Assembly (NCBI GenBank): GCA_036946625.1
Contig: JAQIIU010000002.1
Coordinates: 1,218,501 to 1,282,500, forward strand
Source: Methylorubrum populi
GTDB lineage: Bacteria > Pseudomonadota > Alphaproteobacteria > Rhizobiales > Beijerinckiaceae
Length of the DNA stretch: 64,000 nt
Direction of reading: 5' to 3'
Shown here piece after piece: positions 30,407 through 61,760 of the stretch. The notes beneath the pieces are model-generated. The model was not told the origin of the DNA, ran no database searches, and saw only the letters and a list, made by a program, of their open reading frames with translations. The translations under genes were made by a program, and so were the position numbers. Numbering within the stretch: the first letter of the stretch is position 1; each line of letters begins with the position of its first letter.

Positions 30407-31577
30407 CGATCGATCGTACCACCGAGTGTTTTCCTTTGGGTTCACCGGTGAATCGACGACCTTGGTTGGGGCCTGCCGGATTGCCATGTCGCTCTATGCC
30501 GACATGAGAAGGAGGGCGGCTCGTGTACGCCGAGGACGCAATCGGTCTGCTCGCGTCCGAAGCGGAGGGGCGGAGCAACCCGTTCCCGTGGCGAACCGCA
30601 TCAATTCCGTGAAGATGTGTGCAGCAGCACTGACGGATGCCTGACAGGATCGGTCGATAACCGCGACTGCCGTCCGAGTGCGTCCCTGTTGCGCGGTCCG
30701 GCCCGGTAGGATGTCGGCCGTCACGTCTCGACGGGACCGGCCATTCGCAGCGGCGGCACTCAGGACTGGACTGGTGCTTGGCCAGATAGCGCCGCATCCT
30801 GGCGGCTCCCTGTCTCTCGAAGGCCGGCAGCAGCCGCGGCAGAATCCACGGGAAGAAGGCGCAGAGGCGAGAGAGAAAGCCGTCGCCATAGGGCGCGTAA
30901 TACTCCAACCCGCCCTCCCGGATCGCCCGCATGATACCCTTGACGACCGTTTCGGGCGCCAACGGTTCCGCGAGGAAGTTCAGGGGCGATCCCCCGGCAC
31001 GGGCCTCGGCCAGCAGCATCTTCGTGTCGACCGAGGAGGGATAGACGCCCGAGACGGCGATTCCGCGCTCGCGCATCTCGAGCGCCAGGGCCAGCGTGAG
31101 GCCGCGCAGGCCGAACTTGCCGGCCGAGTAGATCGCGCTGTTCTTCAGCGGCAAGATACCCGCCATCGAGACGACGTTGACGATGGATCCGCCCGTCGAG
31201 ACCTGTGGCAGAAAGGCCGCCAGCACGCGGATCGGGCCGAGGAGATTGATCTCCATCTGCCGCTCGATCGCCCCGGAACTCGCCCTGCGGAACGGTCCGG
31301 GCACGATGCAGCCGGCGTTGTTGACGATCGCATGGACACAGGGGAAGCGAGCCTGGGTCGCGGCGGCCGCCTCCGCCACGGAGGCGGGATCGGTCACGTC
31401 GCACCGCAGGGTCGTCACCTCGTCGCCGAACGCGCGCTGGCAGTCCGCGAGCCCGGCGTCATCGATGTCCAGCATCACCACGTGGAAATGACCTTCGATC
31501 AGACGTCGAGTCAGAACGCGGCCGATCCCGCCGGCCGCTCCCGTGACGATGGCGATTCTGCTCAAAGGGTTGCTCAC
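30354..31577 (-). CDS. short-chain dehydrogenase/reductase (SadH-like) with an unusual C-terminal read-through
   Basis: Start GTG at 31575-31577 overlaps the stop of the upstream permease-monooxygenase gene (GTGA), so the two are translationally coupled. The Rossmann motif T-G-A-A-G-G-I-G, N-N-A-G, the catalytic Ser region (V-V-S-M-A-G) and Y-S-A-G-K are all present. Homology of SDR type ends at about residue 280, near 30760, but no stop follows; the frame continues to 30354 with about 120 residues of low-complexity sequence. A TGA one base out of frame lies directly after the conserved end. Role: probably NAD(P)-dependent oxidation of an alcohol or reduction of a carbonyl in the same pathway as the fused monooxygenase. 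Confidence 0.8.
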   Translation of the reverse strand: MSNPLSRIAIVTGAAGGIGRVLTRRLIEGHFHVVMLDIDDAGLADCQRAFGDEVTTLRCDVTDPASVAEAAAATQARFPCVHAIVNNAGCIVPGPFRRASSGAIERQMEINLLGPIRVLAAFLPQVSTGGSIVNVVSMAGILPLKNSAIYSAGKFGLRGLTLALALEMRERGIAVSGVYPSSVDTKMLLAEARAGGSPLNFLAEPLAPETVVKGIMRAIREGGLEYYAPYGDGFLSRLCAFFPWILPRLLPAFERQGAARMRRYLAKHQSSPECRRCEWPVPSRRDGRHPTGPDRATGTHSDGSRGYRPILSGIRQCCCTHLHGIDAVRHGNGLLRPSASDASRPIASSAYTSRPPSHVGIERHGNPAGPNQGRRFTGEPKGKHSVVRSIATSAPGCVHGCQNRRRF

Positions 31578-34477: not shown

Positions 34478-34918
34478 CGAACAAGCCTTCTCGGCAGGGA
34501 ACGCGCCCGGATGTGCGCAGATGCGAGCGGGCCGCCGGGTCGGGCGGATGCCCGTGGGGAGAGGGCGCCGGCGATGCGGCCCGTCCCGTCGAGGATCTGG
34601 CGGATTTCCGGGATCAGCAGGTCCCGCCTGCCCGCTTGGACCGGGACGGGCGGGAGCGCCGGCTCCTCCTCCGCGATCGGGATCGAGCCGGCGAACGCCG
34701 CTGGCCCTGATCATCCAGTCCGGGGCGCCGATCTGCTCCCGCCGCACAGCACGCATCGCGGCCAGGGCCGCCCGTGAAGACCGCAACGGGAGTCAGGGCG
34801 GCGGCAACGGGAATCGGCACAACGGCGTCGTATCCGGATCCCGGGTCTCCCGGCAGCAGGGCGAGGATAAGCCCCGCTTCCGGCGGGGGGCATGCGGGCG
34901 GGATACGGCAAGCGGCAT
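34478..34918. other. intergenic region between esterase and permease-monooxygenase genes
   Basis: 441 bases with no gene I can support. A GC-rich inverted repeat (CCCGCCTGCCCG / CGGGACGGGCGGG, about 34625-34655) could terminate or attenuate transcription from the upstream esterase gene. A separate promoter for the fusion gene may lie here. Confidence 0.4.
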
Positions 34919-46882: not shown

Positions 46883-47278
46883 CGGCTCTCCTCCTCGGAA
46901 AGCCGGGAATCGAATCGGATTCCCGCCCGCGTCAAAGCCCCAGGCATTCAATCCGGTCGGTTGACGCTCTAGCCAATACGGGAAGCGCGCTGGCAACTGT
47001 GTTGCCAACATCGAGATCAAACATCTGATGTACATCGCGGAAGTTCTACAGAAACAGCAATAATCCGATCAAATTGCTCGATAATGACCCCTTCTGCATA
47101 AAAAAGGGGCGTCGCTTCGAGTGCAAGTTTTTTCACCGATCGGGCTTGTTGCATCTGCGGCTTTGTGACATCGTTGTATAGACAATTAGGAGAAGCGCCA
47201 CAGCCCGAACGGAGACGCGGGCGATTTCTCCGGCGCGGCATCCGCTGGCGCGATGAGTCTGAAGGGTAAGATGACCGA
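46883..47278. other. intergenic region upstream of the ABC importer, AT-rich
   Basis: 396 bases, clearly lower in GC than the surroundings. It contains a CCCCTT / AAGGGG hairpin near 47088-47109 and a HutC-like operator at 47174-47185. No gene is apparent; an ATG at 47271 opens only a three-codon frame. Confidence 0.5.
47174..47185. promoter_or_regulatory. HutC-type operator upstream of the ABC importer
   Basis: TTGTATAGACAA, a near-palindrome that matches the TTGTATATACAA-like operators described for HutC repressors, about 94 bases before the importer start codon. It resembles the element before hutF (53722-53735), the only other place where I found it. Confidence 0.6.
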
Positions 47279-48394
47279 ATGATCGTCTTCGATAGCGTCA
47301 TCAAGCATTATCCGGGCATGACGGCGGCGGTTGGAGGCTTGTCGCTTACCGCGCCGACCGGTCAACTGACAGCCCTTGTCGGTCCTTCAGGCTGCGGGAA
47401 GACGACATTACTGCGAATGGTCAACCGACTGATCGTTCCATCCTCTGGTCAGATCCTGCTCGATGGAGAATCAACGGACAACATCGACGTTGTCCGCTTG
47501 CGCCGAAGGATCGGTTACGTGATCCAGCATGCCGGCCTGTTTCCCCATCGGACCGTCGTCCAGAACATCGCGACCACCGCACGTCTCAACGGATTGCCGA
47601 AGGACAAGGCCCTCCGGGTTGCCCATGAACTTCTCGAGCGCGTCGGCCTAACCGCCGACTTCGCGAGCCGCTATCCCTGGCAGTTGTCGGGAGGCCAGCA
47701 GCAACGTGTCGGCGTAGCCCGTGCTCTGGCCTCTGATCCGAAGTTCATGCTGATGGACGAGCCGTTCAGCGCCGTCGATCCAGTGGTGCGCGGGCAACTC
47801 CAGGACGAGTTCCTGAGGCTCCAGCGGGACATCGGCAAGACCATCATCATGGTCACGCACGATATAGACGAAGCTTTGAAGCTCGGCGATCAGGTCGCCG
47901 TCCTCAGGACGGGCGGCACGCTGGCTCAGGTCGCGACGCCCCAAAATCTTTTGGCGCGCCCGGCCGACGCTTTTGTGGCCGACTTCCTCGGAAGGGACCG
48001 AGGGTATCGTCATCTGGGATTCTCCGACTTCGATGCAGCCTTGCCGCTCTGCGCCGAGCCGACGGTATCGCTCGGCACGACGCCTGACGCCGCTCGGAGG
48101 GTGGCGCTAGACCGTTGGATTCTGGTGGCAGACGCGGCAGGCCAGCCGCTCGGCTGGGCAGACGTCGAGACGCTCAGACAACCGCTGCGAGAGGGCGATC
48201 TCTATCTCGGCGGGACGCTTGCATCGAAAGGCGGCTCCCTGCGGCAGTTCCTGGACGCGGTTCTCAGCTCACCTTCCGGTCGCGGGGTCGTCGTTCACGC
48301 ATCCGGCGAGCTTGCCGGCACCGCTACGATGGCGCGCGTCGTTGAGGCGATCGAGGGCGTTCGTGGTGGTCATGCCGGCGGAGCCCGGCCATGA
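47279..48394 (+). CDS. ABC importer ATP-binding protein, quaternary-amine type (OpuCA/ProV/HutV-like)
   Basis: 371-residue ATPase. Walker A G-P-S-G-C-G-K-T-T at about residues 37-45, Q-loop, signature L-S-G-G-Q-Q-Q-R-V, Walker B L-M-D-E-P-F-S-A-V-D and the switch His in V-T-H-D. A degenerate CBS-like C-terminal portion follows (about 260-360), as in the osmoprotectant branch. First gene of a four-gene importer. It lies downstream of a HutC-like operator, so histidine, urocanate or a related amine is a plausible substrate; HutXWV histidine importers belong to the same transporter family. Confidence 0.9.
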   Translation: MIVFDSVIKHYPGMTAAVGGLSLTAPTGQLTALVGPSGCGKTTLLRMVNRLIVPSSGQILLDGESTDNIDVVRLRRRIGYVIQHAGLFPHRTVVQNIATTARLNGLPKDKALRVAHELLERVGLTADFASRYPWQLSGGQQQRVGVARALASDPKFMLMDEPFSAVDPVVRGQLQDEFLRLQRDIGKTIIMVTHDIDEALKLGDQVAVLRTGGTLAQVATPQNLLARPADAFVADFLGRDRGYRHLGFSDFDAALPLCAEPTVSLGTTPDAARRVALDRWILVADAAGQPLGWADVETLRQPLREGDLYLGGTLASKGGSLRQFLDAVLSSPSGRGVVVHASGELAGTATMARVVEAIEGVRGGHAGGARP

Positions 48395-49035
48395 TTTGGG
48401 GCTGGCTCTACCAAGAATCTGGCCGCATCTCGGAACTCTTCGCCTGGCATCTCGGCCTGTCCACGCTCCCGGTCATCATCGGGCTCCTGCTGGCGATTCC
48501 GCTCGGTTGGCTCGCCCGGCATCTCGGCCTGTTCCAGGCGGCTTTTCTCGGCGGCGCGGGCCTCCTCTATACGATTCCTTCGCTGGCGCTGTTCGTCCTG
48601 CTTCCGCTGGTGCTCGGCACCCGGATCCTCGATCCGCTCAACGTCGTCGTCGCGCTGACGCTCTACTCGCTGGCGCTCCTCGTGCGGACGGTCAGCGACG
48701 GACTCGGCGCGGTCCCACCGGCCGTGTTGCAGGCGGCCAGCGCCATGGGCTACCGGCCCGCCGCGCGCTTCCTTCTCGTGGAGCTGCCGCTGGCCGTTCC
48801 GGTCATCGCGGCGGGCCTGCGCGTCGCCGTCGTCTCCAACGTCAGCATCGTCTCGGTGGCCGCCCTGGTGGGCACGCCTCAGCTCGGGCTGCTCTTCACG
48901 CAGGGGCTGCAGCTTCACTTCCTCACACCGATCATCGTCGGCATCGTCCTGTGCGTGCTTCTGGCGGCGCTGCTGGATGGCTTGGTGCAGTTGCTCGCCA
49001 ACCGTCTCACCCCCTGGCAAAGGAAAGGGCCCTGA
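48391..49035 (+). CDS. ABC importer permease (OpuCB/YehY-like)
   Basis: 214-residue inner-membrane protein with about five to six hydrophobic segments and the permease coupling motif A-A-S-A-M-G-Y-R-P. It overlaps the ATPase gene by four bases (ATGA). The osmoprotectant branch of the family uses two different permeases, and the second one follows. Confidence 0.9.
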   Translation: MIWGWLYQESGRISELFAWHLGLSTLPVIIGLLLAIPLGWLARHLGLFQAAFLGGAGLLYTIPSLALFVLLPLVLGTRILDPLNVVVALTLYSLALLVRTVSDGLGAVPPAVLQAASAMGYRPAARFLLVELPLAVPVIAAGLRVAVVSNVSIVSVAALVGTPQLGLLFTQGLQLHFLTPIIVGIVLCVLLAALLDGLVQLLANRLTPWQRKGP

Positions 49036-49037
49036 CC

Positions 49038-49724
49038 ATGGTGTCCTGGTTCATGGATCCAGAGCACTGGGGTGGGCCGGACGGCGTTCCCGTCCTCCTC
49101 GCCCAGCATCTCGCCTATAGCGGCATCGCCCTCTTCGTCGCCTGCCTGATCGCGATGCCGATCGGCCTCTATGTCGGCCATACGCGTCGCGGCGTGGTCG
49201 TGGTTGCGGGGGTCGCCAACGCCCTGAGAGCGCTGCCTACTCTCGGGCTGATTGTCCTGCTCGTCATCCTGCTGGGGCCGAGCTTCGCATCCGACCTCGC
49301 TTTCGTCTTACCGAGCCTGATCGTCCTCGTACTGCTGGCGGTCCCGCCGATCATGGCTGCGACCTATGCAGGTATCGGGGCCGTGGAGCCGGAGGCGGTG
49401 GATGCGGCCCGCGGCATGGGTCAGCGGCCTCTGCAGATTCTCTTCGGTGTCGAACTGCCCTGCGCCCTGCCCCTGATCTTCTCAGGCCTGCGCAGCGCAA
49501 CCCTACAGATCATCTCGACCGCGACGATCGCGGCCTACGTCTCGCTCGGCGGTCTCGGCCGGCTGATCATCGATGGGCGCGCGCAGAACGACTATCAACA
49601 GATGGCGGCCGGAGCGATCCTCGTCGGTCTCCTCGCATTCGCCGTCGATCTGCTGATCGGGCTCCTGTCCCACCTCTTCGTCTCGCCAGGGCTGAAGCGT
49701 CATTCAAGACGCTCACCCCTGTGA
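49038..49724 (+). CDS. ABC importer permease, second subunit
   Basis: 228-residue membrane protein with about six hydrophobic segments and the coupling motif D-A-A-R-G-M-G-Q-R-P. The ATG at 49038 follows AGGAAAGGG, and the gene begins two bases after the first permease stop. The pair forms the heterodimeric channel of an OpuC/OsmU-type importer. Confidence 0.9.
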   Translation: MVSWFMDPEHWGGPDGVPVLLAQHLAYSGIALFVACLIAMPIGLYVGHTRRGVVVVAGVANALRALPTLGLIVLLVILLGPSFASDLAFVLPSLIVLVLLAVPPIMAATYAGIGAVEPEAVDAARGMGQRPLQILFGVELPCALPLIFSGLRSATLQIISTATIAAYVSLGGLGRLIIDGRAQNDYQQMAAGAILVGLLAFAVDLLIGLLSHLFVSPGLKRHSRRSPL

Positions 49725-49773
49725 GCGTCCCCGCATCCCGATCTCCGGCCCACACGTCTAGGAGTACAACGGC

Positions 49774-50688
49774 ATGGTCATCAAGACACTCGCGGCGGTA
49801 GGCGCCTGCGCCATCCTTGCTCTTTCAGGCCTCTCGACAACCGCCGTGAGCCAGCCTGCATCGGGAGTCCCAACCGGGCAAGGCGTCACAACGATCGTAA
49901 TCGGCTCGGGCGACTTTCCCGAGAGCCAGCTAATTGCGACGATCTACGCCAAAGCTCTGACGGCGAAGGGAATCGTCACCACATTGCGAACCAACATCGG
50001 CAGTCGCGAAGTCTACATGCCGGCGCTGCTCGACGGGTCGATCGACTTGCTTCCGGAGTATGCCGGTGCCCTATTAAGCTACCTCGACAAGAAGGCAACC
50101 GCGCATTCCTCAACCGATGTGGAGGCTGCCCTCAAGGTCGCACTGCCCTCGGGCATTTCCATTCTGACGCCGTCGACGGCCCAGAATGCCGATACGCTGG
50201 TCGTAACGCGCTCCACGGCGACGAAGTACAACCTAAAGACAATCGCTGATCTCGCTCCGGTCGCTGGTGAGTTCGTCCTCGGCGGACCGCCGGAATGGAA
50301 GACCCGTAAGGAAGGAGTTGTCGGCCTGAAGACTGTCTACAATCTCAAATTCAAGTCATTCAAGGGATTGGACGCCGGCGGTCCGCTAACCCTTTCTGCC
50401 TTGAAGAACGGACAGATACAGGTTGCCGATCTGTTCACCAGCGATCCAGAAATCACCACGCAGGATCTCGTCGCATTGGAAGATGTAAAGAATCTCTTCC
50501 CCGCCCAAAACATCGTTCCATTGATTGCAACATCGAAGTCTAACGCCATCGTTGCCAAAACATTGGATGCCGTTTCCGCATCTCTGTCGACGCAAGATCT
50601 CATTAAGATGAACGAGCGTCTCGCAAAACATGCGTCCTTCGATGATGTGGCTAACGATTGGATTGCCGCAAAAGGCCTGAATCACTGA
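49774..50688 (+). CDS. periplasmic substrate-binding protein of the ABC importer (OpuAC/OsmF-like)
   Basis: 304-residue protein with a signal peptide (about residues 1-28) and the OpuAC-type binding fold: I-V-I-G-S-G-D-F-P-E-S-Q-L, then L-R-T-N-I-G-S-R-E-V, L-L-P-E-Y-A-G-A-L-L, and E-W-K-T-R in the second lobe. Its coding sequence is noticeably less GC-rich than the permease genes before it. Ligand residues cannot be read reliably, so betaine, choline and histidine are all possible. Confidence 0.88.
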   Translation: MVIKTLAAVGACAILALSGLSTTAVSQPASGVPTGQGVTTIVIGSGDFPESQLIATIYAKALTAKGIVTTLRTNIGSREVYMPALLDGSIDLLPEYAGALLSYLDKKATAHSSTDVEAALKVALPSGISILTPSTAQNADTLVVTRSTATKYNLKTIADLAPVAGEFVLGGPPEWKTRKEGVVGLKTVYNLKFKSFKGLDAGGPLTLSALKNGQIQVADLFTSDPEITTQDLVALEDVKNLFPAQNIVPLIATSKSNAIVAKTLDAVSASLSTQDLIKMNERLAKHASFDDVANDWIAAKGLNH

Positions 50689-51274
50689 TCGAATATGGCT
50701 GAAGTCCGAGGATCGGGCTCCCGGCGGATTGCAGGACAGTTCAGCCCCGCCGGGAGCCTCTCACAAAGCTCCTGATCACCGGGATTTTTCCTTCTGCACC
50801 AACCGTGCACCGGAATTTGTCGGGCCGATCTTGAGAAGGGGCGACTGCGGTCGTGGAGGCCGAACAGTCTGGTTCTCCAACATGCGGATGGGTCACCAAG
50901 CTTCGTCCACAAGTACAAAGCCCGGGCGGAAGATAGCTGCGGAATGCCACTGCTAGCAATCTTGGAGTGAGCCTTCGCAATCTTGAAGTTGCGCCTCCAA
51001 GCATTGCGGTAATGATTTGGCCTCTGATAATACCGAATTCGAACGCCGCCTGGGATAAATATTGTGAATATCTATATATAATTGGAATATAAATATCAGC
51101 TCTATTGATTATTTTTTATATTAAAAATTATACAACATCAGACAACACAAGAAAAATCAGCAATAATTCAGTTTTATATAGTTATTTATTCGATTGTCAG
51201 GTCAAAATATATATTAGGCCAATTTTACACAATACGAAAATGGTCCCTCGATTTTGAAGAAGGAAAGACACATC
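50689..51274. other. intergenic region with a very AT-rich block
   Basis: 586 bases. The part from about 51040 to 51250 is mostly A and T, in sharp contrast to the chromosome, and holds the promoter of the porin gene. A HutC half-site (GTTGTATA on the minus strand, 51129-51136) is present but not palindromic. I see no gene. The composition suggests DNA from another source, or a silenced or bent promoter region. Confidence 0.6.
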
Positions 51275-52648
51275 ATGAGCAATCGGATCATGACCTTCAG
51301 GCGGCGGAGTCTGACGCTTGGCTGCTGCCTCGTCGTGAGCGGGGCCAGTGGTGTGGTGGCCCAACCGCAGGAGCTCGATGCAGAGCCGACGCAGTTGAAC
51401 CGCACCCAACCCGTGACCGTACCGGAACCCAAGCGCAAGAAGATCCGCGTGGCGCCTCCCGCGGCCGTGACGCCGACGGCCCTGTCCGGGCCACCGGTCG
51501 CGCTCGACGGCAAATGGACTTTCGGCGGTGCCCTGCGAGCCCGGATCGACGTGAACTTCGATGCGGCGAATGCACGGACCGGTGCCCCCGACACCCGAAG
51601 CTATATCGGCTTCGACACGCTCATCCTGAAAGCCGCCTATGATTCCAGCACCTTCTTCGGCGCGGCCCAATACCGTATCCACGGAGGTGCCTTCCCCTAC
51701 ACTCGCGTGGCCGGTTACAAGGGCTATCTCGGCGAATTCAGTTTCCTGCAATTCGCCTATGCGGGCGTCAAGCTCAACGCCAACGACAGCGTCTCGATCG
51801 GCCTGCAGCAGGTGCCGTTCGGTCTGTTGCCGTACTTCAGTACGACGTTCTTCGAGACGATCGGTTTCGTCAATGGTATCGAAGATTTATACAATGTCGG
51901 AGTGAAATACAATCACACGGAAGCTGACCTCAATTATCAATTCGGTTATTTTCCGTCCGATGGCGGCAATTACTTCGGAATCAGTCGCAACAGTGCCCGC
52001 TACTCCACCAATATCGTCAAAGCAGACGGCTACCTCGCGGGTGGGACCAACAATGTCGAGCAGCACATGCTCGTCGGTCGTGGTGAATATACCTTCTTCA
52101 ATTCTGGGGATGCAACGGCTACCGTCGGCGCCTCGATCCTGCGTTCGAGCATCTACAACTACGATACGCAGGAATACGGTTCGAAGCAGCAGGAGGCCCT
52201 TCACCTCGTGGGGACCTATGGCCCATGGACCTTGCGCACGCTCGGTGCGCGGATCGATATCGATCCGCGCAATCCCGGGGGCGCCAACAGCCTGATTTCC
52301 GTTGGCGGCTATGATGGTTCCTATAATCTCGCGACGAAAGGGTGGTTTGTTTCCGGCGATCTGTCCTATAAACTTTCCCCCGAGCACGGTCCGTTCTCGG
52401 AATTGACACCTTATGTGAACTACAGCGCTCTGTACAAGGATCGCGCCGATTTCCGGGATACCGAGCGGTACATGGTCGGTTGCGTCTGGGTGCTCCGTGA
52501 GATCCCGGAAATCTACATCTATACCGAGGCACGTTTCGGCCGAAATGACCCCTATACTGGGGCTGGGCAATACGCTCAAGGTCTTGGCGCAGGTGGCGAC
52601 AACAAATTCAAGACCAGCTTCTATACCAACATCGGATATTATTTTTGA
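51275..52648 (+). CDS. outer-membrane porin
   Basis: 457-residue protein with a signal peptide (T-F-R-R-R-S-L-T-L-G-C-C-L-V, then A-S-G-V-V-A-Q), a Pro/Lys-rich linker and a beta-barrel of alternating strands (A-L-R-A-R-I-D-V-N-F-D, Y-I-G-F-D-T-L, G-V-K-Y-N-H), ending in I-G-Y-Y-F with the terminal Phe recognised by the barrel-assembly machinery. Start at the ATG 51275, with AAGGAAAG upstream. It sits between the importer and hutC, so it probably supplies the outer-membrane step for the same nutrient. It resembles substrate-specific porins, but I cannot name a subfamily. Confidence 0.8.
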   Translation: MSNRIMTFRRRSLTLGCCLVVSGASGVVAQPQELDAEPTQLNRTQPVTVPEPKRKKIRVAPPAAVTPTALSGPPVALDGKWTFGGALRARIDVNFDAANARTGAPDTRSYIGFDTLILKAAYDSSTFFGAAQYRIHGGAFPYTRVAGYKGYLGEFSFLQFAYAGVKLNANDSVSIGLQQVPFGLLPYFSTTFFETIGFVNGIEDLYNVGVKYNHTEADLNYQFGYFPSDGGNYFGISRNSARYSTNIVKADGYLAGGTNNVEQHMLVGRGEYTFFNSGDATATVGASILRSSIYNYDTQEYGSKQQEALHLVGTYGPWTLRTLGARIDIDPRNPGGANSLISVGGYDGSYNLATKGWFVSGDLSYKLSPEHGPFSELTPYVNYSALYKDRADFRDTERYMVGCVWVLREIPEIYIYTEARFGRNDPYTGAGQYAQGLGAGGDNKFKTSFYTNIGYYF

Positions 52649-52877
52649 TACGAGGTCTCTATGACGACGGTTCAGTGGCGTCCGTCCCACGACCGTGGGG
52701 CAGTGGGAGGCCAGTGAGCCGCTTGTCCGATCCGATGCTTGGTCGAAAAATCCGATCGATGGGAAGTACGGAAGGCTGTCCCTTCCTCGGCGGACGTTGG
52801 ACCTCCGGTATGACGTCCGCCCGAACGTTTAGGACTTTCGGCGGACATGCGGCGGCGGTCCTGCCCATGCAATAGCG

Positions 52878-53627
52878 TTACTTTGAAAACCCGCTTTGGA
52901 GGCGGTATCGACTTCCCGGATAGAGCAGACGAACCGTTGATACGGGCCCCTCAGCAGACCAGGTTCGTCGCCTGATCAGCAGGCAGGGATCGATTTTGGA
53001 GATCGCTAGAAGCTTGCATTCCCACGGCAAAGCGTTCGTGGCCTCCACATATTGCTCAGCCTTCACGATGGGGGCCACCTCGGACAGATAAGCGTTCGAC
53101 GTTGTCGTCATGAAATCTTGATGGATGTAGTCGGGAGCTCGCTTGGGATTGACGAATCTATCCTCGAGCTGGATCGGGAGTTCATCTTCGCGATGGACGA
53201 TAATGGTGTGGAAGAGAAGGCTCCCGAGCGGCAGCTCGAGCAGGTCCGCCAGTTCGGGCCCGCAGGCTTCTCCCTGGATGAAAACGATGGTCGCGCTGTG
53301 CCGGCTGCCGCGTTGTCGGATTTCGTCGGCGATGTTCGGCACCGTTTCGAACTGGGAGGCGCGCTTCTTCGCCGCGACGAACGACCCCTTTCCCCGCACA
53401 CGATCGACCAGCCCCTCCGCCGCCAGTTCACGCAAGGCACGGTTGGCGGTCATCCGGCTCACGCCCAGGCTGTCGACCAATTCGTTTTCCGAGGGAACCC
53501 GATGGCCGACGCTCAACTCGCCGCTCTCGATGCGGCTGCGTATGTAGGCTTTCAGCTTCTCGTATAGAGGTGCCGTGAGGTCGTCGACATCCTGCGTCTC
53601 ACTCGGACTTGCTTCGGTCGATGACAT
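52878..53627 (-). CDS. hutC: HutC, GntR-family repressor of histidine utilisation
   Basis: 249-residue regulator with an N-terminal GntR winged helix (about residues 20-85: P-L-Y-E-K-L-K-A-Y-I, R-V-P-S-E-N-E-L-V, V-S-R-M-T-A-N-R-A-L-R-E-L) and a UTRA ligand domain (about 100-240: D-E-I-R-Q-R-G, E-D-R-F-V-N, A-P-D-Y-I-H-Q-D-F). HutC is released from DNA by urocanate. Start at 53625-53627; M20 of a longer reading (53657) is an alternative. It is divergent from hutF, with a HutC-type operator between them, so it is probably autoregulated. Confidence 0.92.
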   Translation of the reverse strand: MSSTEASPSETQDVDDLTAPLYEKLKAYIRSRIESGELSVGHRVPSENELVDSLGVSRMTANRALRELAAEGLVDRVRGKGSFVAAKKRASQFETVPNIADEIRQRGSRHSATIVFIQGEACGPELADLLELPLGSLLFHTIIVHREDELPIQLEDRFVNPKRAPDYIHQDFMTTTSNAYLSEVAPIVKAEQYVEATNALPWECKLLAISKIDPCLLIRRRTWSAEGPVSTVRLLYPGSRYRLQSGFSK

Positions 53628-53721
53628 GCCGGTTCCGTACTGCGTATGCTCCGGCATCTTATAGCCACGGACCACATGGCGCTGCCAGCCTCGGCTTGTG
53701 TTTCCCCTCAACATGCCCCAT

Positions 53722-53735
53722 GTTGTATATGCAAC
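53722..53735. promoter_or_regulatory. HutC-type operator in the hutC-hutF divergent promoter
   Basis: GTTGTATATGCAAC, a palindrome with one mismatched pair, 22 bases before the hutF ATG. It matches the TTGTATATACAA pattern known for HutC sites and would let HutC block the hut operon until urocanate accumulates. Confidence 0.7.
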
Positions 53736-53756
53736 TTGATCGGAGCGGGCCTACCT

Positions 53757-55124
53757 ATGCAACCGCGGTCCCTCTTTTCCCCGTCCGCCCTGCTTCCCGA
53801 GGGCTGGATGCGCGACGTCGTGATTCATGTCGATGGTGCCGGATGCATCTCTGATATCGTCCCGGGCGCATCGCCCATCGGTTGTCAGGGCCTCGGTGGC
53901 CCGGTCGTGCCGGCTCTGTCCAATCTCCATTCCCACGCCTTCCAGCGCGCGATGGCAGGTTTGGCGGAGACGGCCGGCAGCGAGGACGACAGTTTCTGGA
54001 CATGGCGGACGCAGATGTACCGGACCGTGTCCAAGGTGGACCCGGACGACGTGGAGGCGATCGCCGCCAAGGTTTATGTCGAGATGCTGAAGGGCGGCTT
54101 CGCCCGCGTCGCCGAGTTCCATTACCTGCACCATGGTCCCGGCGGGGACCGGTATGCCGACCCGGCCGAAACCTCGCTCCGGATCCTCCGCGCCGCGTCG
54201 CAGGCCGGCATCGGGCTGACGCATCTTCCCGTCTTCTACGCCCATGCGAATTTCGGCGGCATCGCACCCGGCGAGGGCCAGCGTCCGTTCCTCCACGAGG
54301 TCGACGGCTATCTCGCGCTCCTGGAACGGCTCGCACCGGCTTGTGCGAGGCAGGACGCGAAGCTCGGTCTGGCGATCCATTCCCTGCGGGCGGCGACGCC
54401 CGACGAGATCCGCGCGATCCTCGAAGCCGAGCGGACCGGCGGACCGATCCACATCCATGTCGCCGAGCAGGAGCAGGAAGTCGCCGATTGCCTCGCCTGG
54501 AGCGGGCGCCGTCCGGTGCAATGGCTGCTCGACGAGCTTCCGATCGACGATCGCTGGTGCGCGATCCATGCGACGCACATGGACAAGGACGAGACGGCCC
54601 GGCTCGCCGCCTCGGGCGCCGTCGCCGGCCTCTGTCCGGCGACCGAGGCCAATCTCGGGGACGGCCTCTTCCCCGCAACCGCCTTCCTTGAGGCCGGCGG
54701 TCGCATCGGCATCGGCACCGACAGCCACGTGGCGACGAGCGTTGCCGAGGAGTTGCGCCTCCTCGAGTACGGCCAGCGCCTGCGGGACCGGCGGCGCTCA
54801 CGTTTGGCGGCCGGACCCGGCGCCTCGGTCGGGCGCACGATGCTCGATGCCGCCCTCGCCGGCGGGGCGCAGGCCGCCGGTCTCCGGACCTGCGGCCTCC
54901 GGCGGGGCGCGCCGGCCGACCTGATCGTGCTCGACGGGGCCAACCCGTTCATCGCGGCGGCGCAGGAGGACGCCATCCTTGGCCGCTGGCTCTTTGCGCT
55001 CGGCGGCGACGTGGTGCGCGACGTCCTGGTCGGCGGGCGCTTCGTGATCCGAGCGGGGCGGCACGAGGCGGACGAGGCCATCGACCGCGCCTTCCTGAAG
55101 ACGCTTCGGAGACTGCACGCGTGA
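53757..55124 (+). CDS. hutF: formimidoylglutamate deiminase
   Basis: 455-residue amidohydrolase that converts N-formimidoyl-L-glutamate to N-formyl-L-glutamate and ammonia. Zinc motif N-L-H-S-H-A-F-Q-R-A is at about residues 52-61, H-I-H-V-A-E-Q in the middle, H-A-T-H and the catalytic Asp in G-I-G-T-D-S-H. The ATG at 53757 has GGAG 11 bases upstream. First gene of the operon. The presence of HutF together with HutG selects the two-step N-formylglutamate route. Confidence 0.94.
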   Translation: MQPRSLFSPSALLPEGWMRDVVIHVDGAGCISDIVPGASPIGCQGLGGPVVPALSNLHSHAFQRAMAGLAETAGSEDDSFWTWRTQMYRTVSKVDPDDVEAIAAKVYVEMLKGGFARVAEFHYLHHGPGGDRYADPAETSLRILRAASQAGIGLTHLPVFYAHANFGGIAPGEGQRPFLHEVDGYLALLERLAPACARQDAKLGLAIHSLRAATPDEIRAILEAERTGGPIHIHVAEQEQEVADCLAWSGRRPVQWLLDELPIDDRWCAIHATHMDKDETARLAASGAVAGLCPATEANLGDGLFPATAFLEAGGRIGIGTDSHVATSVAEELRLLEYGQRLRDRRRSRLAAGPGASVGRTMLDAALAGGAQAAGLRTCGLRRGAPADLIVLDGANPFIAAAQEDAILGRWLFALGGDVVRDVLVGGRFVIRAGRHEADEAIDRAFLKTLRRLHA

Positions 55125-56656
55125 AACCAGTTGCTGTCGGGATTGTCGCCGAGCCTGCCGGCGACATCCTCCGGATCGATGGGCCGCCCAGTCCAGAGTG
55201 CATCGTCGCCGTCGCGCGCGGGGCGCAGATCGCCCTGGCGGAGACCGCCTGCGCCCGCGTTGCGCGAGGGCGGCGCATCGTCGAGGCGGTTTCGGAGCAG
55301 GGCATTCGCGGCTACGGCATCAACACCGGCGTCGGTGCGTTCAGCGACGTCATCATCGACCGGTCCCGACAGCGGGCGCTGTCGCGCAACATCCTGCTCA
55401 GCCATGCCTGCGGTCTCGGCGATCCGCTCGGTCGGCCGGAGACGCGAGCCGTGATGGCGGCCGAGATCGCGAGCTTCGCCAGCGGCGCATCCGGCGTGCG
55501 GCTCGAGGTGGTCGATGGCCTGGTCGCGCTGCTGAATGCCGACATCCTGCCCGTCATCCCCTCGCGCGGTTCGGTGGGCTATCTCACCCACGCCGCCGCC
55601 ATCGGCTTGGTCCTCATCGGGCAGGGCGAGGCAATCGCCGGAGGTGAGCGGATCAGCGGCGCGCAGTCGCTCGCGCGGATCGGCTTCGCCCCGCTCGTCC
55701 TGGAGGCCAAGGAAGGTCTCAGCCTCGTCAACGGGACCCCCTGCTCGACCGGCCTCGCCTGCCTAGCCCTCGTCCGGTTCGCCGAACTGCTCGACTGGGC
55801 CGATGCCGCAGCGGCCATGACCTATGAGAACCTGGGTGCGCAGGCCGGGGTCTTCGACGCGGTGACGCTGTCGCTGCGCCGTTCCAACGGACTCCAGACG
55901 GTCGGCCAGCGCTTGCGTCGGCTTCTCGACGCAAGTCCGCTTCTGCGGCGGCGTACCGGAAGCCGCACGCAGGATCCGCTCAGCTTGCGAGCGATCCCCC
56001 AGATCCATGGTGCGGCGCGTGACGTGCTCGCCAGCGCACGCGTCGTCGTCGAGAGCGAACTCGGGAGCGTCACCGACAACCCCTCGATCGGCGGCACGCC
56101 CGATGCGCCGCAGGTTCGCTCGCAAGCCCATGCCGTGGCGGCGGCCCTGGGTCTCGCCCTGGATGCGCTCGCGGTCGCGGCGGCCGAGGTTGCGGCGATC
56201 TCCGAGCGACGGATCGACCGGCTGGTCAATCCGCTCGTCAGCGGCCTGCCCGCCTTCCTTGCACCCGAAGAGGGGGTTTTCTCGGGCTTCATGATCGCGC
56301 AGTACTCCGCCGCGGCGCTCGTTGCCGAGAACCATCGGCTGTCGATGCCTGCGAGCCTCGGCGGCGGCATCACCTCCGCCCTGCAGGAAGATATGCTGAC
56401 GCACGCCACACCGGCGGCCACGAAGCTGCTGTCCATCCTCGACAACCTGCGCGACATCCTGGTCATCGAGCTTCTCGCCGCCGCGCAGGCCTACGACCTG
56501 CAGCCGGGCGTGGAGCTCGCGCCCGGCACCGAGGCGCTGCGGGCTCGCATCCGAGCCTTCGTGCCGGCCTATGCCGACGACCGTCCGCTCAACCGCGATA
56601 TCACGATGCTCACGTCGCTCCTGTCCACACCGGCCTTCGCGGAGGATACCGCATGA
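55121..56656 (+). CDS. hutH: HutH-like aromatic amino acid lyase without the MIO triad
   Basis: 511-residue member of the histidine/phenylalanine ammonia-lyase superfamily in the position of hutH. Conserved: [37 protein letters not shown] and L-Q-E-D. But where all characterised lyases have G-S-V-G-A-S-G-D-L, this protein reads G150-S-V-G-Y154-L-T-H, so the Ala-Ser-Gly that cyclises into the MIO electrophile is absent. The catalytic Tyr in D-P-Y-S-L-R is also Leu (L287), and the F-H-A-E-P-V region is altered. GTG start overlaps the hutF stop. It is either an enzyme with different chemistry, or a partner of a true HutH elsewhere. Confidence 0.85.
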
Positions 56657-57870
56657 AAAGGCTCCTGACGCGGGCCCGGCTCGCCACGCTTGCGCCTGAC
56701 CGGCCGGGCCTCGGTCTCGTGGAAGACGGGGCGATCCTCATCGAGGATGGACGCATCGCCTTCGCCGGCGCGGCGCAGGACCTGCCGGCTCACAGCGCCG
56801 CCGGGGCCGAGACGCGCGACCTCGAAGGCCGTTGGGTGACCCCGGCGCCGATCGACTGCCACACCCATCTCATCCATGGTGGCGACCGGGCGCGCGAGTT
56901 CGAGATGCGGCTCGCCGGTGCAACTTACGAGGAGATTGCCCGGGCGGGCGGCGGCATCGTCGCCTCCATCGCGGCGACCCGGGCGCTCTCCGTCGAGGCT
57001 CTCGTCGCGTCCGCACTGCCGCGCCTCGACGCTCTCCTGGCGGAGGGGACGACGACGGTCGAGATCAAGTCCGGCTACGGTCTCGCGATCGAGGCCGAAC
57101 TCCGGATGCTCGCCGCCGCCCGACGTCTGTCCGAACTCCGGCCGATCCGGATTGCAACGACCTGGCTCGCCGCCCACGCGACGCCGCCCGAATACAGCGG
57201 CCGCAACGGCGCCTACCTCGGCGAGGTGGTGATCCCCGGCCTGCATCTGGCGGCGGAGCGCGGGCTGGTCGATGCCGTGGACGGCTTCTGCGAGGGCATC
57301 GCTTTCTCCGCCGACGAAATCGAGCGGGTCTTCGCGGCGGCGCGGGCTCTTGGACTGCCGGTCAAGCTGCATGCCGAACAGCTCTCGCATGCGGGCGGTG
57401 CGGCGCTGGCCGCCCGCTTCGGCGCGCTCTCCGCCGATCATCTCGAATATTGCGATGCCGCGGATGCGCGGCTCATGGCCGAGGCCGGTACGGTCGCCGT
57501 GCTGCTGCCGGGCGCCTATTACTTCCTTCGCGAGACGCAGGTGCCGCCGGTTGACTTGCTTCGTGCCGCCGGCACGCGGATGGCGCTCGCCACCGACTGC
57601 AATCCGGGCACCTCGCCCCTCACCTCACTGCTTCTGACCATGAACATGGGCGCCACGCTCTTCCGCATGACCGTCGCGGAGTGCCTGGCAGGGGTGACGC
57701 GCGAAGCGGCGCGGGCCCTCGGCCTGCTCGGAGAGACCGGCACGCTCGAGTCCGGCAAGTCCGCCGACCTCGCCGTTTGGGACATCGGTCAGCCGGCGGA
57801 ACTCGTCTACCGCATCGGCTTCAACCCCTTGCACGCGCGCTTCTTCCGCGGCGAGGAGACCTCTGCATGA
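56653..57870 (+). CDS. hutI: imidazolonepropionase
   Basis: 405-residue amidohydrolase opening imidazolone-5-propionate to N-formimidoyl-L-glutamate. The metal motif [10 protein letters not shown] is at about residues 72-81, followed by [26 protein letters not shown] and D-C-N-P-G-T-S complete the family pattern. The ATG overlaps the hutH stop (ATGA). All residues expected for activity look intact, in contrast to the preceding HutH. Confidence 0.95.
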
Positions 57871-58694
57871 ACCCCGTCGAGATCCGCTGGGGTTCGTCCC
57901 CCATCATTCTCGGCCTGCCGCATGCGGGGACCGACGTTCCCTCGGGCATCGCGGCCCGCCTGAACGCCGATGGTGCCCGCCTGCGCGACACCGACTGGCA
58001 CATCGATCGGCTCTACGAGGGCTTGCTCCCGAACCTGACCACGGTGCGCGCGACCTTTCACCGCTACGTCCTCGATGCCAATCGCGATCCCCGCGGAGTC
58101 AGCCTGTATCCGGGCCAGAACACCACCGGGCTGATCCCCGAGACGGATTTCGACGGCGAGCCGATCTGGCATGCGAGTGCGGGACCGACGGAGGAGGACG
58201 TCGCCGAGAGGCTGGCCCGCTTCCACGCCCCCTATCACGCCGCGCTCGCCGCCGAGATCGCTCGTGTGAAGGCCCTCCATGGCGTCGTGATCCTCTACGA
58301 TTGCCATTCGATCCGGTCACGCATCCCGTTCCTCTTCGACGGCGTGCTTCCGGATCTCAATGTCGGCACTGCTGGCGGCGCGACCTGCGATCCGCGCGTC
58401 GAGGCCCTGGTCACGGCGGCCTGCCGAGCGGAGGAGGCCAGCTATACCACGATCCTCAACGGGCGCTTCCGCGGCGGTTGGACGACGCGGCATTACGGAC
58501 GCCCCGCCGATGGCGTGCATGCGATCCAGATGGAGATCGCCCAGTCCGCCTACCTCGCCACCGAGCACGCCCCGTTCGCCTACGACGACGGCAGGGCGGA
58601 GCGCTTGCGCGCGCTCCTCGCCACCATCCTGTCCGGCCTCGAAACCCTCGCCCCCACGCTTGCCGCTCCCCTTGCACAAGGCCCCGTCCGATGA
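57867..58694 (+). CDS. hutG: N-formylglutamate deformylase
   Basis: 275-residue zinc hydrolase of the N-formylglutamate amidohydrolase family, releasing L-glutamate and formate. P-H-A-G-T-D-V-P-S is at about residues 18-26, [11 protein letters not shown] in the centre, D-C-H-S-I-R-S at about 145 and Q-M-E-I-A-Q-S-A-Y at about 215. Its ATG overlaps the hutI stop. In a methylotroph the released formate could be oxidised for energy or assimilated. Confidence 0.94.
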
Positions 58695-60364
58695 GCCCGA
58701 TCGACCGCCTCCACAATGCACGCCCCGTCCGCTCACCGCGGGGAACCGAGCGCAGTGCGAAGTCCTGGCTGACCGAGGCGCCGCTGCGGATGCTGATGAA
58801 CAACCTCGACCCTGACGTCGCGGAGAACCCCAACGAGCTCGTCGTCTATGGCGGCATCGGCCGAGCCGCGCGCAGTTGGGGCGATTTCGACCGGATCGTC
58901 GCATCGCTGCGGGATCTGGAAGCCGACGAGACGCTGATCGTGCAATCCGGCAAGCCGGTCGGCGTGTTCCGCACGCACAAGGATGCGCCGCGAGTCTTGA
59001 TCGCCAATTCCAACCTCGTTCCCCATTGGGCCCACTGGGACCACTTCAACGAGCTCGATAAGAAGGGCCTCGCGATGTACGGCCAGATGACGGCCGGCTC
59101 CTGGATCTACATCGGCACGCAGGGAATCGTTCAAGGCACCTACGAGACCTTCGTCGAGGCCGGCCGCCAGCACTATGGCGGCGATCTTGCGGGGCGTTGG
59201 GTGCTGACCGGCGGATTGGGCGGCATGGGCGGCGCCCAGCCGCTTGCGGCCGTGATGGCCGGCGCCTCGTGTCTCGCCATCGAGTGCAACCCGGATTCCA
59301 TCGAATTCCGCCTGCGCACCCGCTATGTCGATGAGAAGGCCGAGACGCTGGACGAGGCGATGGCGATGATCGACGCCTGGACCCGGGGCGGCGAGGCCAA
59401 GTCCGTCGCCCTCCTCGGCAACTGCGCCGAGATCCTCCCCGAGATGGTCAAGCGCGGTATCCGGCCGGACATGGTCACCGATCAGACCTCCGCGCATGAT
59501 CCCGTCAACGGCTACCTGCCGATCGGCTGGACGATGGCTCGGTGGCGCGAGATGCGCGAGAGTGATCCAAAGGCGGTTGCTGTCGCCTCGCGCGCCGCCA
59601 TGCGGATCCATGTGCAGGCGATGCTTGACTTCCAGGCACAAGGTATCCCGACCTTTGATTACGGCAACAACATCCGTCAGGTCGCCCTTGACGAGGGCCT
59701 GCGGAACGCCTTCGACTTCCCCGGTTTCGTACCGGCCTACATCCGCCCGCTCTTCTGTCGGGGCATCGGTCCGTTCCGCTGGGCGGCCTTGTCGGGGGAT
59801 CCGGAGGACATTTACAGGACCGACGCCAAGGTGCGGGAGCTTCTGCCCGAGAACACCCATCTCCACCGCTGGCTGGACATGGCGCGCGAGCGCATCGCCT
59901 TCCAGGGATTGCCGGCGCGCATCTGCTGGGTCGGCCTGGGCGATCGGCATCGGCTCGGCCTTGCCTTCAACGAGATGGTGCGGAACGGCGCGTTGAAGGC
60001 ACCGATCGTCATTGGCCGCGACCATCTCGACTCCGGCTCCGTCGCCTCGCCCAACCGCGAGACGGAAGCGATGAAGGACGGCTCGGATGCGGTCTCCGAC
60101 TGGCCTCTCCTCAACGCTCTGCTCAACACGGCGTCGGGTGCGACCTGGGTCTCGCTCCACCATGGCGGGGGCGTGGGCATGGGCTTCAGCCAGCATTCCG
60201 GCATGGTCGTCTGCGCCGACGGCACCGACGACGCGGCGCGGCGCCTGGAGCGTGTGCTCTGGAACGATCCCGCAACCGGCGTGATGCGCCATGCCGATGC
60301 CGGCTACGAGATCGCCCGCGCGTGCGCGCGCGAACACGGCCTCAACCTGCCGGCCATCCTCTAA
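58691..60364 (+). CDS. hutU: urocanate hydratase
   Basis: 557-residue enzyme adding water to urocanate to give 4-imidazolone-5-propionate, with tightly bound NAD+ as the electrophile. The Gly-rich NAD site [10 protein letters not shown] is at about residues 176-185, [12 protein letters not shown] in the centre, and [12 protein letters not shown] and [13 protein letters not shown] in the C-terminal part. Full length for the family. Its ATG overlaps the hutG stop, so hutF through hutU are all coupled by 4-base overlaps. Confidence 0.96.
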
Positions 60365-60430: not shown

Positions 60431-61006
60431 ATGCGCCTCCTAAGACAAGCCGAACGGAGACGCATGCCGTGGAAGAACGGCGGAGGCACGTCCATCGAGA
60501 TCGCGGTCCATCCGCCCGGATCCGATTTGGCGCACTTCGACTGGCGCCTCTCGATGGCGACAGTGACGGACGATGGTCCCTTTTCGATTTTTGATGAGGT
60601 TGACCGGACGTTGTGCCTCCTCGAAGGCGCATCCCTTGATCTTGAAATCGCCGGCCAGGAACACCATCGGCTGACGCCCGATTCTCCCCCCTTGTCCTTC
60701 CCCGCCGACGCCGTGGCGACGGCGCGCCTGGAGAACGGCGCGATCTCCGATCTCAACGTCATGACGCGCCGCGGCGTCTGTCGGCATCGCGTCGTCGAAA
60801 GGACGTTGTCTGGCCGGACTGAGATCGACTTGTCAGGCACTTGGAATGCAATCTTCCTAACAGGGCGCTGCTTCATCGAAGCCCAGACCTTCTGTGAAGA
60901 AGCCGTAGCCAATGATGTGCTCGTCAGTAACAGCGCGATCTCATCGGTTGTTGCACCATCCCATGAATCACTGAAAATCTACATGATTGAGATATTTAAT
61001 CTATAA
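60431..61006 (+). CDS. hutD: HutD-family protein
   Basis: 191-residue cupin-fold protein of the HutD family. The typical start M-P-W-K-N-G-G-G-T-S-I-E-I appears at about residues 12-24, with F-D-W-R-L-S-M-A-T-V, G-P-F-S-I-F-x-x-V-D-R-T and L-N-V-M-T-R-R downstream. In Pseudomonas HutD is thought to limit hut expression, perhaps by binding N-formylglutamate. It follows hutU by 66 bases. The C-terminal third is AT-richer than the rest. Confidence 0.9.
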   Translation: MRLLRQAERRRMPWKNGGGTSIEIAVHPPGSDLAHFDWRLSMATVTDDGPFSIFDEVDRTLCLLEGASLDLEIAGQEHHRLTPDSPPLSFPADAVATARLENGAISDLNVMTRRGVCRHRVVERTLSGRTEIDLSGTWNAIFLTGRCFIEAQTFCEEAVANDVLVSNSAISSVVAPSHESLKIYMIEIFNL

Positions 61007-61127: not shown

Positions 61128-61760
61128 CTCACACCCTGCTGTTTGGTCCCGGTATTTGGTGGAGCGGATTGAGCCTGAAGGGGCCGGGCTCAGCGGACCA
61201 TGCCTTGCAGATGGCCTCGAACGGGGTGAGCCCGCGCAAGGTCTTGAGGCGGCGGCCGTAGTTGTAGGCGGCAATGAAATCGGCCAGATGCGCGCGCAGC
61301 TGCTCATGGCCGTCATAGTAGTAGCGCCGGACGGCTGCGTCCTTGATCGTGCGGTTCATTCGCTCGACCTGACATTCGTCCAGGGATGGCGCGGTTTGGT
61401 CAGACGGTGCTCCACGTCGTTGCGGGCGCAGGCTGACTCGAAGCTGTGGGCGCGGCAGGCCTCGCCAGCGGCGATCGCCTCCTTGATGAGTGGGGCTGCC
61501 GAGGCGACGTTGCCGGGCGTGGTGAAGTGGGTGCCGTTATCGGTGAGCACCGTGTGAACCCGGTAGGGCACGGCCGCGATCAGGTGGCGCAGGAAATCGC
61601 CCGCCACCCGGCGCGTGGCGCGCTCGTGCCGCTCGACGAAGGCGAACTTGGTCGTGCGGTCGATGGCCACGAACAGGTAGAGCCGGCCTTCAGACGTGTG
61701 CACCTCGGCGAGATCGATGTGGAAGTAGCCGGATCGCCGATGGCGTCGCCGGCGGATCAA
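61128..61760 (-). pseudogene. IS481-family transposase remnant
   Basis: Two overlapping minus-strand pieces of an rve-type transposase: G-Y-F-H-I-D-L-A-E-V-H-T, F-V-A-I-D-R-T-T-K-F-A-F-V-E and V-L-T-D-N-G-T-H-F-T in the first (to 61356), then Q-V-E-R-M-N-R-T-I-K-D-A-A-V, H-L-A-D-F-I-A-A-Y-N-Y and L-K-T-L-R-G-L-T-P-F-E in another frame (61360-61128). The N-terminal helix-turn-helix is missing. The frameshift lies near 61358. Confidence 0.85.

Follow-up and report, generated by a model that had tools for sequence, protein, structure and literature searches.

Ergothionase releases trimethylamine from ergothioneine and is the characterised enzyme that has the fold of histidine ammonia-lyase (HAL, HutH) without the 4-methylideneimidazole-5-one (MIO) cofactor. 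A HAL-family lyase that likewise lacks the MIO-forming triad occupies the hutH position of a hut operon in a 64,000-nucleotide stretch of Methylorubrum populi DNA (GCA_036946625.1, contig JAQIIU010000002.1, forward-strand positions 1,218,501 to 1,282,500; hereafter the window). This window lyase is very probably a trimethylamine-lyase, and the operon probably degrades histidine betaine rather than histidine, with hercynine (N-alpha-trimethylhistidine) cleaved to urocanate and trimethylamine. The ergothionase of T. denticola (6s7j; residues taken from its alignment with a relative at locus L098) shares with the window lyase the HAL fold, the absence of MIO, the exchange of Tyr280 (HAL numbering) for leucine, and the retention of the base tyrosine and Glu414. 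However, at 26–27% identity there are differences: the leucine motif reads QDPLSFR in 6s7j and QDPLSLR in the window lyase, the 6s7j loop SSIGEGD is one residue short and the window loop three, Phe329 is kept in 6s7j and is alanine in the window lyase, and Asn195 is serine in 6s7j and kept in the window lyase. The substrates would also differ, ergothioneine in one enzyme and hercynine in the other, with a chemistry that is proposed to be alike. The lack of MIO in ergothionase is also stated in PMC13405746. The relative at L098 (7959-9464; Rhizobium johnstonii plasmid pRlX5) is an ergothionase-like lyase annotated hutH, with GSIGAADL and QDPLSYR; it also lacks the triad and has the same exchange of tyrosine for leucine, its best match in the PDB is 6s7j, and its neighbours are a glycine betaine binding protein and a gene annotated hutC.

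The HAL of P. putida (1b8f) resembles the window lyase in fold, position in the hut operon, and most active-site residues, but possesses the MIO triad, Tyr280, and Phe329, where the window lyase has a deletion, leucine, and alanine. In the Ert-type cluster of an A. tumefaciens plasmid (L060), a betaine ATP-binding cassette (ABC) transporter stands next to a lyase that also belongs to the YLTH clade and shares 61% identity with the window lyase. The S-methyl-thiourocanate hydratase (975.8 bits, cut-off 880), ErtD (782.8, cut-off 600), and ErtE (576.1, cut-off 520) of this cluster exceed their curated cut-offs. The window has canonical HutU, HutI, HutF, and HutG instead of such a set, and neither ErtD (best 196.2 bits) nor ErtE (best 35.5 bits) reaches these cut-offs in the window genome. 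The S. meliloti system hutXWV-hutH2 is reportedly a histidase with a histidine/betaine transporter. At the S. meliloti locus L028, a ProXWV-type transporter lies directly before a GSVGYLTH lyase, which is probably hutH2, a gene named in PMC3410850. Furthermore, EgtU, an ergothioneine transporter according to PMC9732360, shares an OpuAC-type domain and Glu375 with the binding protein of the window transporter, at 26% identity.

The MIO-less loop and its conservation

The window lyase is encoded by an intact open reading frame (ORF) of 511 amino acids with a GTG start, which overlaps the stop of hutF, and belongs to the aromatic amino acid lyase family. Residues 150-157 read GSVGYLTH. When the window lyase is aligned with P. 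putida HAL and 11 further MIO enzymes (A-S-G in 11 of the 12, S-S-G in L056), the triad proves to be deleted: compared with the reference segment GSVGASGDLAPLAHMSL, three residues are missing from the loop, and the residues directly after GSVG align where HAL reads ASGDLAPLAHMSL. The absence of Ala-Ser-Gly noted earlier from the letters of the window therefore stands, while the reading of Y-L-T as its replacement gives way to a deletion of three residues. The reported loss of the catalytic tyrosine of DPYSLR is borne out by Leu287 in DPLSLR, at a position where Tyr280 is kept in 12/12 of the MIO enzymes. Simultaneously, the window lyase retains Tyr53, His83, Asn195, Gln277, Arg283, and Glu414 of HAL, and alanine aligns with Phe329. 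At 449.9 bits against 539.15 for TIGR01225 and 466.2 against 524 for NF006871, the protein does not reach the curated hutH thresholds. Such a cut-off is no sure guide to class, as a MIO-less lyase from Priestia (L097) exceeds it. The predicted structure (predicted local distance difference test 88) has the HAL fold, with Foldseek template modelling scores of 0.89 to HAL (1gkj) and 0.86/0.89 to ergothionase; the fold is not decisive for function, because HALs are placed higher than ergothionase in the Foldseek order.

Homologues were taken from two overlapping protein searches, each limited to its best 120 matches (of 7537 and of 2655), which gave 163 proteins, near relatives only, with the window's own protein (P0002) among them. 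The loop GxxGY[LIM] is present in 163/163 of the matches listed, that is, in all 162 others, and ASGD in 0/163, whereas leucine in the motif QDxLSxR is found in 162/163 of them (159 by the first pattern and three with LSVR; P0085 not resolved). Among 27 aligned YLTH-type sequences, the A-S-G deletion and the exchange of Tyr280 for leucine are common to all, as are Tyr53, His83, Gln277, Arg283, and Glu414; Asn195 is kept in 23 and different in 4, and the position of Phe329 holds a small residue (Ala, Gly, Cys, or Thr) in all 27. The ratio of nonsynonymous to synonymous substitution rates (Ka/Ks) is 0.08–0.23 across nine lyase pairs, indicating purifying selection, and an open frame with the GYL loop exists in 54 of the 55 named-genome loci of the window lyase type (57 loci, with the MIO-type L056 and L057 left out). 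The MIO-less loop is not a matter of chance or error; it belongs to a conserved subfamily, which settles the question, raised in the earlier note, of whether relatives share the GSVGYLTH form.

In a tree built without the trait columns, 24 rows make up the main YLTH clade, which has firm support (100/100), the lyase of a Klebsiella plasmid and the second lyase of an Aureimonas locus form a separate firm pair, and the Priestia lyase stands alone. Ergothionase pairs with L098 of R. johnstonii (98/98), both being long branches. The T. denticola ergothionase and the window clade lie on separate branches; a single clade of all MIO-less lyases, long branches included, is not rejected (approximately unbiased test, p-AU 0.271), nor is a single YLTH clade (p-AU 0.381). 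The deep branches are unsettled, so one loss of the MIO triad and several losses are both compatible with the tree.

Genome content and the context of related lyases

The window genome (three contigs, 4.79 Mb, 99.99% complete) contains no second HAL-family match at E values up to 0.001 across the whole genome, which is the test that had been set beforehand for a second HutH. The refuting conditions of the earlier note that the analysis covered, a typical MIO HutH elsewhere and a motif loss shared by no relative, do not hold. Because the window lyase is the sole HAL-family gene, the operon cannot feed on histidine via a normal histidase. Among four other genomes of the genus listed, a match was present in one, at 41% identity, and absent from the other three. 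The only urocanate hydratase of the genome is the operon HutU, which is of the canonical type and reaches 672.6 and 697.2 bits against the thiourocanate and S-methyl-thiourocanate hydratase models, under their cut-offs of 930 and 880. HutU, HutI, HutF, and HutG (the HutF–HutG route below urocanate) and also HutC all exceed the curated NCBIfam cut-offs (Table 1), unlike the HutD-like protein; the neighbouring hut enzymes look intact, as the first reading of the sequence had held. The family matches of hutF, hutC, and hutU begin at residues 42, 51, and 143, respectively, and the true starts are probably near 53765 for hutF, near 53564 for hutC, and further downstream than listed for hutU.

Around the lyases of the 55 loci, a betaine-type ABC transporter lies within 6 kb in 43 and HutC within 10 kb in 47. 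A canonical HutU is found within 10 kb in 14 loci and a hydratase of the L060 type in none (0/55), and the three hydratases scanned beside hut-linked MIO-less lyases (L027, L059, and L062) are canonical. A MIO-type HutH occurs within 10 kb in 13 of the 55, mostly within the same run of hut genes. In a Klebsiella pneumoniae plasmid (L062, NZ_CP046646.1), a distant MIO-less lyase, 41% identical and with GSVGYLIATA and DALSLR, stands beside the same transporter type as in the window (binding protein 58% identical), a canonical HutU, and hut genes; the DNA of this lyase is present in 203 of 72,556 plasmid records, with most of its length in 163. In Bacillota, a plasmid of Priestia aryabhattai (L097) carries a MIO-less lyase with GSLGYLNHQAHI near hutU, hutI, an agmatinase-family protein, and major facilitator superfamily transporters. 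Two further loci were observed in passing. Aureimonas endophytica (L048) possesses two MIO-less lyases of different subfamilies at one locus, the second adjoining an OpuAC-type transporter. In Rhizobium tumorigenes (L064:11469-12623), a SolA-type N-methyl-amino-acid oxidase (422 bits, cut-off 257) directly follows the MIO-less lyase.

In the binding protein of the window transporter, the EgtUC cage residues Phe293, Tyr341, Tyr419, Tyr443, and Glu375 correspond to Tyr, Asp, Phe, Gln, and Glu (the comparison disregards the L044 row). The same pocket of Asp, Gln, and Glu exists in the binding proteins beside the MIO-less lyases of Aureimonas (L048, L051, and L059) and Klebsiella (L062); judged from these sequences, the common pocket argues for a shared ligand that would be other than ergothioneine, without naming it. 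Both cage positions are Tyr in the binding protein of L027, which is encoded near another hutU and is a 32–33% relative. In addition, operator-like palindromes precede both hutF and the transporter operon in the window. The Aureimonas loci L048, L051, and L059 carry GTTGTATAGGCAAC near the corresponding hut or lyase promoter, while the transporter promoter of L059 has only a looser form of the palindrome.

Hercynine as the probable substrate and the alternatives

Urocanate is the probable product, because the downstream HutU, HutI, HutF, and HutG are ordinary and the thiourocanate-type enzymes of L060 are absent; a trimethylated substrate that yields urocanate would therefore be hercynine. The suggestion that the lyase acts on a substrate other than histidine is thereby supported and made specific. 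Fungi, mycobacteria, and other soil bacteria produce hercynine, from which ergothioneine is formed. EgtB and EgtD are adjacent in the window genome (G000:C3:1165860-1168128), and the host therefore probably makes both hercynine and ergothioneine itself. In the proposed mechanism, the betaine-type ABC transporter (47279-50688) would import hercynine, the retained catalytic Tyr65 would take the beta proton, and the quaternary ammonium would leave without MIO activation, since such a good leaving group needs no electrophilic MIO. Leu287 and Tyr154 may fill the space of Tyr280 and the MIO beside the trimethylammonium, as ergothionase chemistry and the alignment suggest, and by analogy with known chemistry the combination of leucine at Tyr280 and MIO loss may be the mark of trimethylamine-lyases. 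Urocanate would then be converted by HutU, HutI, HutF, and HutG to glutamate. HutC is a repressor that senses urocanate, which fits urocanate as the product, and its repression would be lifted by urocanate at both shared operator-like sites.

Trimethylamine could be used via genes elsewhere in the genome, namely a trimethylamine monooxygenase (832.8 bits, cut-off 675), a trimethylamine N-oxide (TMAO) demethylase (1276.7 bits, cut-off 1100), and genes resembling dimethylamine monooxygenase; a TMAO permease (880.9 bits, cut-off 690) is also present. The trimethylamine genes and the DmmA-like (dimethylamine-monooxygenase-like) and PF11927 proteins form one cluster within C2:1938000-1957500. Across 385 genomes of the class, with a lyase match called at E ≤1e-110 and a monooxygenase at E ≤1e-180, the monooxygenase is found in 21, the lyase in 9, and both in 5, which places the monooxygenase in 5/9 lyase genomes against 16/376 others. 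Counted by genus, it is present in 2/4 with the lyase against 10/272 (Fisher 0.0099). The link gives mild support, because four of the five genomes come from one genus and because, against it, G008, a congener that lacks the lyase, carries the trimethylamine monooxygenase too. No hercynine-degrading lyase was found in the open-access literature searched, subscription papers being outside its scope.

Several observations weigh against hercynine. EgtUC, an ergothioneine binder, is the nearest solved relative of the window binding protein, and two of its four cage aromatics (Tyr341 and Tyr443) are replaced there; with nearest relative and replaced aromatics pulling in different directions, the ligand of the window transporter is uncertain. 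The substrate cannot be read from the clade of the window lyase, since the L060 lyase, which belongs to an ergothioneine-type cluster, falls inside it. Ergothionase activity is reported for Agrobacterium radiobacter in PMC7653990, and Agrobacterium holds lyases of the same clade as the window lyase. Twelve of the 55 loci have no betaine transporter within 6 kb, including two short stretches (L024 and L040) and L048, where the transporter is approximately 9 kb away. The lyases of L061 (R. johnstonii) and L064 (R. tumorigenes) adjoin an amino-acid-type transporter (binding protein PF00497 in L061, with a counterpart 81% identical in L064), an imperfect fit to a betaine substrate. The operator pattern GTTGTATANNCAAY, which has exactly two matches in the 4.79-Mb genome, one ahead of hutF (53722) and the other ahead of the transporter (47173), and none in reverse, was derived from the very two sites that it recovers; among 14 other loci scanned, it is found in 3 and has no match in 11. 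Finally, the lyase of L055 (Rhizobium sp. 32-5/1 plasmid) has no single open frame and appears as three pieces by tblastn, owing to a broken gene or a sequencing error.

The main rival, which we regard as unlikely, is that the window lyase is an ergothionase that acts on ergothioneine, S-methyl-ergothioneine, or ergothioneine sulfonate and yields thiourocanate or a 2-substituted urocanate. The characterised MIO-less relative is an ergothionase, the binding protein is nearest to EgtUC, the related L060 lyase sits in an Ert-type cluster, the activity reported in A. radiobacter (PMC7653990) is of this kind, and the host is probably an ergothioneine maker. However, the sole urocanate hydratase of the genome falls under both thiourocanate cut-offs, ErtD and ErtE are absent from it above cut-off, Asp and Gln stand in place of Tyr341 and Tyr443 of the cage, no further enzyme exists among the annotated genes of the hut and transporter operons, and downstream of the lyase no gene type recurs in at least three of 10 loci inspected. 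An ergothionase of the Ert pathway is lowered by the single canonical HutU together with the missing ErtD and ErtE. A route through ergothioneine sulfonate, reportedly described by Yan (2022, ACS Catal), whose work PMC13405746 and PMC9967237 cite, is less probable, as the two operator-sharing operons hold no extra enzyme and no downstream gene type recurs to the extent given above.

Another N-methylated or cationic histidine derivative, such as N,N-dimethylhistidine, is improbable as the substrate. It would also give urocanate, which is all that a canonical HutU demands, and the Asp of the transporter pocket and the amino-acid-type transporters of L061 and L064 could suit less methylated substrates; however, in HAL chemistry tertiary and primary amines leave poorly without MIO, and the pairing with betaine-type transporters in 43/55 loci does not favour it. 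Less probable still is a non-catalytic partner of another HutH, as had been considered before, or a decaying relic. The lost cofactor triad and Tyr280, the 13 loci with a MIO HutH nearby, and the broken L055 copy could be taken in this sense, but the window genome has no other HutH, the nine pairs are under purifying selection, the other active-site residues are kept in all 27 sequences except Asn195 and Phe329, and the loop and the frame are conserved in 162/162 other homologues among the matches listed and 54/55 loci, respectively. A degraded gene is ruled out by loop conservation and Ka/Ks, although the L055 relative is broken; partnership with a MIO HutH could still apply elsewhere, in loci such as the 13. 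Deamination of histidine by MIO-independent chemistry, also proposed in the earlier note, is unsupported and scarcely credible. The lyase does hold the HutH position in an otherwise complete hut operon, but with MIO and Tyr280 it has lost the two elements by which HAL handles the amino group, the same exchange of tyrosine for leucine is found in ergothionase, whose leaving group differs, and 13 of the 55 named loci retain a MIO HutH beside the lyase.

With hercynine retained as the probable substrate of the window lyase, a wider reading is somewhat favoured, in which a new activity, hercynine trimethylamine-lyase, converts ordinary hut operons to hercynine use, both across Alphaproteobacteria and, as separate cases, in Priestia and on Klebsiella plasmids. 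Such proteins would be the ones now listed under histidine ammonia-lyase, with S. meliloti hutH2 as a probable example, and the same A-S-G deletion and exchange of tyrosine for leucine, from ammonia-lyase to trimethylamine-lyase, may have arisen more than once. If this is true, many HutH annotations in rhizobia and on plasmids name the wrong function, a complete-looking hut operon is no predictor of growth on histidine, and trimethylamine has a new source in bacteria. The loss of the MIO triad together with leucine at the tyrosine of DPYSLR would serve as a sequence rule that separates trimethylamine-lyases from ammonia-lyases.

Coordinates and other features of the window

Table 1. Features of the hut and transporter operons, in window positions.
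Feature	Position	Strand	Basis or remark
Predicted hercynine trimethylamine-lyase, MIO-less, HAL-family	55121..56656	+	A-S-G deleted, Tyr280 (HAL numbering) to Leu287
GSVGYLTH loop, site of deleted MIO triad, codons 150-157	55568..55591	+	
hutF, formimidoylglutamate deiminase	53646..55124	+	TIGR02022 662.8 bits, cut-off 413.05; ORF as listed
hutI, imidazolonepropionase	56653..57870	+	TIGR01224 430.6 bits, cut-off 298.15
hutG, N-formylglutamate deformylase	57867..58694 (part of ORF 57681-58694)	+	TIGR02017 355.7 bits, cut-off 278.75
hutU, urocanate hydratase	58301..60364	+	TIGR01228 958.4 bits, cut-off 375; ORF as listed
HutD/Ves-like protein	60431..61006	+	NF008488 77.4 bits, below cut-off 292
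hutC, GntR-type histidine utilisation repressor	52878..53714	-	TIGR02018 272.6 bits, cut-off 220
ABC transporter ATP-binding protein, ProV/betaine type	47279..48394	+	TIGR01186 285.8 bits, below cut-off 326.6
ABC permease 1	48391..49035	+	PF00528
ABC permease 2 (C-terminal part of ORF only)	48219..49724	+	Relatives in betaine-type transporter operons of L044, L048, L051, L059, L062
Substrate-binding protein, OpuAC family	49774..50688	+	PF04069 164.4 bits; EgtUC, which binds ergothioneine, is the solved structure closest in sequence
Operator-like palindrome GTTGTATATGCAAC, before hutF	53722..53735		
Operator-like palindrome GTTGTATAGACAAT, before ABC transporter operon	47173..47186		

Just past the hut operon, a fragment of an integrase core (rve) is located at 61356-61760 on the reverse strand, suggesting mobile DNA at the operon edge. 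Between the transporter and the hut genes, the stretch 50690-52690 is of lower GC content (54%, against 68% for the window) and contains a 464-amino-acid ORF (51254-52648) that no NCBIfam model matched at E ≤0.001 and no Pfam model at E ≤1e-5. At a distance from both operons, a 1070-amino-acid ORF at 31574-34786 on the reverse strand consists of an amino acid permease domain (residues 144-553) fused to a flavin monooxygenase-like domain (residues 600-949).

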